A DNA stretch of 64,000 nt from positions 1-64,000 of the forward strand of contig NZ_JABAHY010000002.1 in NCBI RefSeq assembly GCF_012641515.1, written 5' to 3'. Below, piece by piece: positions 44,921 through 47,736 of this stretch. The stretch's first letter is position 1; every line of letters begins with the position of its first letter. The notes under the pieces were generated by a model. It was not told the origin of the DNA, ran no database searches, and saw only the letters and a program-made list of their open reading frames with translations. Made by a program: the position numbers and the translations under genes. The DNA is from Nesterenkonia sedimenti. GTDB taxonomy: Bacteria; Actinomycetota; Actinomycetes; Actinomycetales; Micrococcaceae.

Positions 44921-46123
44921 TCAGAGCTTGTCGAGGGTGATCAGCAGCATGCGGCGCAGCGGTTCGGCGGCACCCCAGAGCAGCTGGTCACCAATGGTGA
45001 AGGCGCTGATGTACTCCGGGCCCATTTCTAGCTTGCGGATCCGGCCCACCGGGATGGTCAGCTCACCAGTGGCTGCCACGGGAGTGAGGTGCTCCATAGT
45101 GGCTTCCTTCTCATTGGGAACCACCTTGGCCCAATCCGAGCCCTCGGCGATGATCTTTTCGATCTCATCCACCGAGAGGTCCTCACGCAGCTTCAGGGTC
45201 AGGGCCTGGGAATGGGAACGCAGGGCGCCGACTCGCACGCACAGGGACTCAAAGGGGATTGCGCCGCCGCGGCGCTCCACGCCCGGGGCCAGGTTATCGC
45301 CGCGGCCGAGGATCTTATTGGTCTCAACCCCGCCCTTCCACTCTTCCTTGGCGGTGCCATTGCCGAGGTCGGCATCGATCCAAGGAATCAGTGAACCGGC
45401 CAGCGGAACGCCGAACTGGGAAGCATCCAGTTCCCCACGCTGGGCTGCCAGGACCTTACGGTCGATCTCCAGGATCGCGCTAGCCGGATCAGCCAGCTCA
45501 TCAGCCACCGTTCCGTGCAGAGCGCCGAACTGGTTCAGCAGCTCCCGCATATGCTGGGCGCCACCCCCAGAGGCCGCCTGGTAGGTCATGGCGGTGCCCC
45601 ATTCAACGAGGTCGTTCTTGAACAGTCCGCCCAGACCCATCAGCATGCAGCTGACCGTGCAGTTGCCGCCGACGAACTCATTGACCCCGGCAGCCAGGCC
45701 GGCGTCGATGACGTCCCGGTTGATGGGGTCCAGCACGATGATCGAGGACTCCGACATCCGCAGTGAGGAGGCCGCGTCGATCCAGATGCCGTTCCAGCCG
45801 GCCTCGCGCAGTTTGGGGTAGACCTCCTTGGTGTAGTCCCCACCCTGCATGGTCACGATGATCGGCAGTTTCGCCAGGGTCTCAATATCGTAGGCGTCCT
45901 GCAGCTCCGCGGTCTCCGGGGTCGCGCCCTGGAACTCAGGGGCGGGCTTGCCGGCAGCGGAGGTGGAGAAGAACACCGGGTTGAAGTGGGCGAAGTCGCC
46001 CTCATCAACGAAGCGCTGCATCAGCACGGAGCCGACCATTCCTCGCCAGCCGATCAGGCCCACGGAACGGGACTCACCGGCGGCAGCGGACAGAGCAGAG
46101 GTTTCAGCAGAAGCAGAAGTCAT
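44921..46123 (-). CDS. asd: Aspartate-semialdehyde dehydrogenase (E. coli-like type)
   Basis: 400 residues; reduces aspartyl phosphate to the semialdehyde for Thr, Met, Lys and diaminopimelate synthesis. NADP motif [17 protein letters not shown], catalytic Cys in [19 protein letters not shown], and catalytic His in [16 protein letters not shown]. The [13 protein letters not shown] and MQGGDYT features place it in the branch that includes E. coli Asd rather than the ~345-residue type common beside lysC in Actinobacteria. No lysC is adjacent. Monocistronic with its own terminator. Confidence 0.93.
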
Positions 46124-46175: not shown

Positions 46176-46925
46176 TCAGCGGCGGCGAGGCTTGCGCACC
46201 AGAATCACAATGCCCCAGATCACAATCAGCAGCAGCAGAACATTGAGGACCACACCGGTCACCAAATACGCCGTATCCCCAGAGCGCTCCTCGGTGGCCC
46301 GATTGCCCGCGGCCGATGCCAGAAAGAGGAATGAGCCCAGCACGATCATCAAGATCGCGGCGACCTTGGACCCCCGGGATTTCTTCAAACCGCGACGGCG
46401 ATAAGTGTTGAAGCGGTAACGCAGTCCGGTCTGGGAGGTTTCCCACTCCGGAGCCGGTTCGGCCTGCTCCCACTTGTCCGCGTTCAGCTGCGGGGCGTAG
46501 GTATCACCTGGGGCAGGGGTTTCAATAGTGGTAACCGAGGCGATATCAATGAGGTCCTTCTCCACGGCCTCGGCGTAGATGGCCCCGCCGCCCATGATCC
46601 ACACCATTGGATCGGGCCCGCTTGCCTGGGCAGACCCCAGTTCAATAGCCTCTTCCAATGAGGAGGCCGTCATCGCACCGGCGGACTGCAGTTCGGTGGC
46701 GCGGTCGGCGTCGCGCGTGATGACGATATTGATCCGCTTCGGCAGGGGCCGGAACTGCTCGGGCAGGGACTCCCAGGTTTTGCGTCCCATAATCACCGGT
46801 GAGCCGGCGGTGGTCTCTTTGAAATGGGTGAGGTCCTCCGGTACATGCCAGGGCATCTGCCCATCGGCTCCGATGACACCCTCAGGTGTCTGGGCCCAAA
46901 TGGCACCGATCAGGGTCTCGCTCAT
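46176..46925 (-). CDS. folA: Dihydrofolate reductase with C-terminal membrane tail
   Basis: 249 residues. Residues 1-165 are a complete DHFR ([81 protein letters not shown]). Then come a basic linker (GLKKSRGSK) and two hydrophobic helices ([20 protein letters not shown] and [24 protein letters not shown]), ending RKPRRR. Bacterial DHFR is normally soluble and ends near residue 160. No frameshift or second start is needed to join the parts. ATG at 46925 lies four bases after thyA; longer open frame upstream is inside thyA. Confidence 0.9.
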
Positions 46926-46929
46926 ACGT

Positions 46930-47736
46930 TCAGACAGCCACCTTTGCCTTGATCGTCGGATGCGGATCGTAGTTGAGGACCTCGAAGTCCTCGTAGTCGT
47001 AGTCAAAGATGGATTCCGGCTGCCGATTGATGCGCAGCTGCGGGTAGGGGCGGGCCTCGCGGCTGAGCTGCTCACGGACCTGCTCGAGGTGGTTGTCGTA
47101 GATATGGCAGTCCCCACCGGACCAGATGAACTCGCCAGGTTCCAGGCCGACCTGCTGGGCGATCATCATGGTCAGCAGCGAGTAGCTGGCGATATTGAAG
47201 GGAACCCCGAGGAACATATCGGCGCTGCGCTGGTAAAGCTGGCAGGACAGCTTGCCGTCGGCCACATAGAACTGGAAGAGGATGTGACAGGGCGGCAGGT
47301 TCATCTCGCTGACCTGCCCGGGGTTCCAGGCGGTGACCACATGGCGGCGGGAGTCCGGGTTGGCTTTGAGCTGCTCGACCAGCTGGGCGATCTGGTCAAC
47401 TTCCTCACCATTGGGAGTGGGCCAAGAGCGCCACTGGACTCCATAGACGGGTCCGAGATCGCCGTTCTCATCAGCCCATTCGTTCCAGATTCGCACGCCG
47501 CGTTCCTGCAGCCAGCGCACATTGGAATCTCCGCGCAGGAACCACAGCAGTTCCAGGGCGACGGCTTTGAAATACACCCGTTTGGTGGTGATCAGCGGAA
47601 AGGACTCAGAGAGGTCGTAGCGGATCTGCCGCCCGAAGACACTGCGGGTACCGGTGCCAGTCCGGTCGGTTTTCTGCGCACCATTGGCGAGTACATCAGC
47701 GAGCAGGTCTTCATAGGGCGTGGGAGTTGACGTCAC
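46930..47736 (-). CDS. thyA: Thymidylate synthase
   Basis: 268 residues; makes dTMP from dUMP with methylene-THF. Catalytic Cys in [14 protein letters not shown], plus [58 protein letters not shown] and [13 protein letters not shown]. Normal size (E. coli 264). GTG start at 47736. Forms a two-gene operon with folA, which regenerates the dihydrofolate it releases. Confidence 0.96.

Follow-up and report, generated by a model that had tools for sequence, protein, structure and literature searches.

The folA gene and its C-terminal extension

On the minus strand of the window (the whole 64,000-nucleotide stretch of Nesterenkonia DNA analyzed here), thyA, folA and asd lie one behind another (Table 1), and translation of positions 46176-46925 yields a single open frame of 249 residues with its sole stop codon at the end. 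PF00186 (DHFR_1) covers residues 6-177 of the protein (E = 4.2e-44; 150.5 bits, cut-off 25; profile positions 2-159 of 159), a whole-domain match over the curated cut-off that places it in the dihydrofolate reductase (DHFR) family. The active-site region of this family is present, with W26, D31, G47-S53 (GRKTWES), G112 and G113 invariant among 31 aligned sequences, and we take D31 to be the catalytic acid. The best solved relative by sequence is the mycobacterial DHFR 7k6c (E = 6.2e-39), which is also the top Foldseek match of the AlphaFold2 model (TM 0.95 by target length). In this model, strands extend up to residue 177 and the pLDDT blocks of the DHFR part lie at 89-98. Furthermore, the RRR that closes the DHFR domain here is immediately followed by the folA stop in three congeners (G004, G006 and G009). 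The protein encoded in the window continues beyond ...TYRRR for 71 residues, which comprise GLKKSRGSK, two helices separated by an 18-residue loop, and a closing RKPRRR. The sequence-only reading, which described a full DHFR running without a break into a basic linker, two hydrophobic helices and an RKPRRR end, is thus borne out by translation, the PF00186 match and hydropathy.

Table 1. Features of the thyA-folA-asd region, in window positions
Feature	Position	Strand	Basis
thyA, thymidylate synthase, directly upstream of folA; stop 4 nt before the folA ATG	46930..47736	-	PF00303 (E 1.6e-126), NF002497
DHFR (folA) domain, residues 1-178, complete, ends ...TYRRR	46392..46925	-	PF00186, AlphaFold2/Foldseek, folA stops of congeners
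Basic linker GLKKSRGSK, residues 179-187	46365..46391	-	sequence, charge count
First transmembrane helix (predicted), hydropathy peak 188-206, model helix 185-212	46308..46364	-	hydropathy, AlphaFold2
Predicted outside loop, residues 207-224, net charge -1	46254..46307	-	charge count
Second transmembrane helix (predicted), hydropathy peak 225-243, model helix 218-243	46197..46253	-	hydropathy, AlphaFold2
C-terminal RKPRRR, residues 244-249, predicted cytosolic, and stop codon	46176..46196	-	translation, charge count
asd, aspartate-semialdehyde dehydrogenase, downstream, far end of the folA-asd slot	44921..46123	-	TIGR01745

A longer frame starting from a GTG at 47117 exists, but this GTG sits inside thyA, and the sensible start of folA is the ATG at 46925. 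Downstream, asd begins 52 nt from the fused gene; its product is of the type described by TIGR01745 (asd_gamma; 564 bits, cut-off 402.9), which takes its name from gamma-proteobacteria although the host is an actinobacterium.

ThyA makes dihydrofolate, which DHFR recycles. Exactly one PF00186 match was found in each of seven genomes, namely, the six with a fused DHFR (the window genome, G000, as well as G014, G011, G017, G020 and G021) and G026, and no match to ThyX (PF02511) was found in any of the seven. Given the presence of ThyA, the single PF00186 match and the absence of ThyX matches, the fused protein, as the sole DHFR of the PF00186 type, should be required to recycle dihydrofolate, judging from knowledge of the pathway. 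The same observations suggest, if only indirectly, that the window protein reduces dihydrofolate with NADPH.

DHFR is a textbook soluble enzyme and drug target. The window protein resembles chromosomal FolA (PF00186; mycobacterial 7k6c and 2w3v) in its complete fold, its active-site region and its location behind thyA, but differs in that the best-matching FolA structures end at about residue 177, whereas here 71 residues with two predicted helices are added. Natural fusion of DHFR to another chain is known from the bifunctional DHFR-TS of protists and plants, and one such chain, 8dae, is among the structure matches of the window protein. In DHFR-TS, however, the partner is an enzyme of the same cycle, in contrast to the predicted membrane hairpin of the window protein, which does not belong to this group, with thyA being a separate gene upstream.

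A predicted membrane hairpin and its separate counterpart

The hydropathy peaks of the tail reach 2.48 in the first helix and 3.22 in the second, and AlphaFold2 models these segments with moderate helix confidence (pLDDT blocks 61-80, below the DHFR part). The net charges of the linker (+7), the loop (-1) and the C-terminus (+5) follow the positive-inside pattern of an N-in/C-in hairpin, and the two-helix membrane anchor proposed from the sequence alone is accordingly supported by prediction, through hydropathy, charges and modeled helices. The weak Pfam matches of the tail (Tetraspanin with E = 6e-4 for the isolated tail, the others weaker, all below the cut-offs) were set aside as matches of hydrophobic composition.

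When the tail DNA was shuffled, the 71-codon tail stayed open in 2277 of 20000 cases, so that openness alone is weak evidence, but an open tail with two hydropathy peaks of at least 2.0 was never obtained (0/20000). Together with the homologous tails in G014 and G026, these shuffles rule out chance read-through. A profile built from the window, G014 and G026 sequences themselves matched well in three of the 30 genus genomes: the window genome and G014, in which the tail is fused to DHFR (E = 1.6e-43 for the G014 tail), and G026, in which it is a standalone ORF (E = 6.2e-43). Pairwise identities among the three tails are 0.44-0.46. The G026 homolog (L011), 0.46 identical to the window tail and located in the same genomic slot, differs from it in being a separate gene of 88 amino acids, which starts at its own ATG, 75 nt past the folA stop, and has an N-terminal lead of 13 residues that is absent from both fusions. 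The window and G014 proteins are fused at the same point (RRR-xx-KKS), right after the site where folA stops in G004, G006 and G009. Thus, the comparison of these loci gives good support to an origin of the tail from a small membrane-protein gene that once lay directly behind folA, was merged with it in frame, and is still separate in the congener G026.

The occurrence of the same fusion in two different species makes a sequencing or assembly error unlikely, and the GC content by codon position of the tail (0.61/0.44/0.77) is like that of the DHFR part (0.62/0.51/0.75); we attach almost no weight to an artifact. For the same reason, a stop codon behind the DHFR domain in resequenced DNA, which would speak against the fusion, is hardly to be expected, and the search for the fusion in relatives that had been suggested at the outset was successful, with G014 and, in four congeners, a second, unrelated fusion.

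The tail is less conserved than the enzyme, the amino acid identity between the window and G014 being 0.46 for the tail and 0.62 for DHFR; the differences by codon position are 0.46/0.36/0.53 and 0.30/0.21/0.50, respectively. Across 395 family genomes, the tail profile gave, beyond the three genomes above, two weak matches in one other genus (G135, E = 1.3e-4; G090, E = 8.4e-4). The G135 relative (L190 1210-1719, +) has 169 aa, in which two helices follow a Pro-rich part, and no DHFR-like ORF was seen by eye in 2.2 kb around it.

The folA-asd slot and NF038396

The slot between folA and asd was readable in 26 of the 30 genus genomes; G005 and G025 have no folA match, and in G016 (C1:2565180-2565667) and G024 (C29:23553-24131) folA matches in two pieces, which suggests frameshifts or poor assembly. 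The slot more often holds a different small two-helix protein, NF038396 (NCBIfam), than the window-type tail: NF038396 is separate in nine genomes and fused in frame to DHFR in four (G011, G017, G020 and G021), whereas the window-type protein is separate in one (G026) and fused in two (G000 and G014). Another two carry a third two-helix ORF behind folA (L012 in G008, 93 aa; L015 in G002, 108 aa); the 93-aa ORF has no family match over the cut-off, and no support was found for a relationship of the window tail to this third type. In the remaining eight genomes, no hydrophobic ORF or two-helix gene was found in the slot.

DHFR thus bears a two-helix tail in six of the 26 Nesterenkonia genomes. 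Such a tail was absent from 59 other genomes (58 belonging to the family and one to another family of the order) and from 80 named loci, one of them from Nesterenkonia, both samples being the top of similarity rankings and not a random draw. The named relatives retrieved with the protein, by which the family is Micrococcaceae, comprise many from Arthrobacter and related genera. The second, unrelated fusion in Nesterenkonia shows that the window protein is no one-off. In two genomes of genus g6, the PF00186 match is in two pieces within one open frame (G110:C11:776743-777351 and G150:C1:290135-290725), corresponding to a DHFR interrupted by a central insert.

NF038396 is present in 13 of the 30 genus genomes, in 29 of the 58 other family genomes (taken from the top of a ranking by an NF038396-containing query, a choice biased in its favor) and in 31 of another 60 family genomes, ranked lower than that listing. 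Order-wide, it was found in 3 of 119 genomes, all three of the same family. It lies on the same contig and strand as folA in all 42 genomes of the first two sets and in 30 of 31 of the third (72/73), and in these 72, the fused ones included, its core begins 532-696 nt past the start of the folA match. In the exception, G135, folA is cut by a contig end and NF038396 lies on a different contig, 73 bases from its end, which fits an assembly break.

The first two sets include 38 unfused pairs, of which 36 were measured by motif and two were missed by it; in 35 of the 36, a possible NF038396 start lies within 20 nt of the folA stop, with a 4-nt overlap in 15. According to PMC10666635, genes with short overlaps are coupled in translation, and such overlaps are over-represented where the products are subunits of the same complex, so that, from the gene arrangement, a complex of DHFR and NF038396 appears plausible. 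Nor is there a fusion among 30 additional NF038396 pairs taken from further down the ranking, where the two genes never share an open frame.

The window tail shares with NF038396 the layout of a small two-helix protein part directly behind DHFR, in the same slot, and differs from the four NF038396 fusions in its loop of 18 residues, compared with 3 by the same measure. The linker between DHFR and NF038396 is about 65 residues long in G011 and G021 (loci L021 and L022), where it is rich in Ala, Gln, Ser and Asp, and about 37-40 residues long in G017 and G020. We rejected the possibility that the window tail is a diverged NF038396: it has no NF038396 match over the 40-bit cut-off, nor is there one anywhere in G000, G014 or G026, and hhalign assigned the two tail types a probability of about 1%, against 99% for a control comparison of genus and family NF038396 sets. 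The window tail may nevertheless work like NF038396 without belonging to that family.

If the small membrane protein were also made from an internal start, or the anchor were cut off after synthesis, each fused gene would give two products. An in-frame ATG is indeed kept at the place of the NF038396 start in G011, G017 and G020, and the window has a TTG at residue 180, its sole internal ATG, GTG or TTG ahead of the first helix. However, no Shine-Dalgarno match precedes this TTG, the stretch from DHFR to the first helix of G014 is free of ATG, GTG and TTG, and in G021 the ATG reads CTG, the next ATG, at residue 228, being close to the first helix; we regard two products as unlikely. Taken together, the single frame, the complete DHFR that is the only PF00186 match, the homologous separate ORF and the lack of a well-supported internal start in the window argue for a genuine fusion.

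Origins of the fusions and a proposed membrane tethering

In a tree of the ThyA, FolA and Asd proteins, the two kinds of fusion, with NF038396 and with the window-type tail, fall into different halves of the genus (bootstrap/SH-aLRT support 97/94 and 89/80). Because the two tails lack detectable homology and are borne by different halves of the tree, DHFR acquired a two-helix tail at least twice, each time from a different partner. The window-type fusions belong to a clade of seven species (100/99) in which G000 branches first, and the other branch (93/96) unites G014 and G026 with four species that have no slot gene. G000 and G014 are not grouped in the free tree, and constraining them together gives p-AU = 0.037 in a post hoc test. 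The fusion may have been present in the ancestor of all seven species and later been split or lost, or it may have arisen twice at the same point, with the shared junction favoring one event.

The four NF038396 fusions fit a single event (p-AU 0.515), with the unfused G018 as the next relative. The nearest relatives of G018 (L023) are fused, and its folA has a longer, different C-terminal end, which overlaps the NF038396 start by 4 nt and resembles that of the unfused G022. FastTree places G018 among the fused species (support 0.81-0.86). Its interpretation as a re-split fusion was dropped, as the careful tree leaves this fork open and is equally compatible with the four fused species forming a clade that excludes G018; the unfused, pre-fusion state may simply have been retained in G018.

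The best reading of these data, to which we assign a probability of roughly 0.7, is that folA merged in frame with a small two-helix membrane-protein gene directly behind it, and that the product is held at the inner face of the membrane, although its location and benefit are inferred. The protein would be inserted as a hairpin with both ends cytosolic, leaving DHFR in the cytosol, where NADPH is, with one anchor per enzyme, and the fused DHFR would be translated from the same operon as ThyA.

Several observations weigh against a role in tethering or favor a neutral merger of operon neighbors, in which, after loss of the stop codon and spacer, each part still does its own work and the tether brings no benefit. 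The two genes were already adjacent, often overlapping; the slot gene is absent from 8 of the 26 Nesterenkonia genomes, and NF038396 from roughly half of the genomes sampled elsewhere in the family; sequence change is faster in the tail than in DHFR; the species with the window-type fusion are not sisters; and G026, inside the window clade, has the parts separate. The absences and the fast tail, though, are consistent with a dispensable localization aid as well as with a neutral merger. Against neutrality speak the attachment of two unrelated two-helix partners to the DHFR C-terminus within a single genus, the absence of fusions from the 59 other genomes and the 30 further NF038396 pairs, and the fact that the tail is borne by the cell's sole DHFR. 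We consider a neutral merger a serious alternative, but one that we would not bet on.

Membrane tails can in general act as level control, and here such a segment might expose DHFR to membrane proteases or slow its synthesis. Both unrelated tails would need to have this property, which makes the explanation quite improbable.

Tethering at the inner membrane face may also extend beyond the fusions. With less certainty, the association of DHFR with a two-helix partner could be the rule in part of the family, via NF038396, the fusions making the partnership permanent. In its strongest form, DHFR would be membrane-associated in much of the Micrococcaceae, with the slot protein, NF038396 or an unrelated substitute, binding it at the inner face and the fusions representing permanent complexes, a proposal that we advance tentatively and consider rather unlikely.

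No paper on a natural membrane-bound, -associated, -anchored or -tethered bacterial DHFR was found by a phrase search of titles and abstract beginnings among the matches listed, which included few subscription journals, and the papers on thymidylate complexes among the matches listed were eukaryotic only. In PMC3280521, DHFR and the transmembrane proteins are products of different genes. A phrase search for the NF038396 accession in literature that leaves most subscription journals outside likewise returned no paper. The position of its gene immediately after folA in 72 of 73 genomes found to bear NF038396 provides a functional lead for this family.

To conclude, a natural membrane fusion of a cell's sole DHFR, which has arisen at least twice, offers a direct way to ask about the spatial organization of folate enzymes in bacteria. 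The fusions hint that the enzyme works at the cell membrane in Nesterenkonia and, if DHFR were membrane-associated across the family, this would imply a membrane-organized folate/thymidylate cycle in bacteria.
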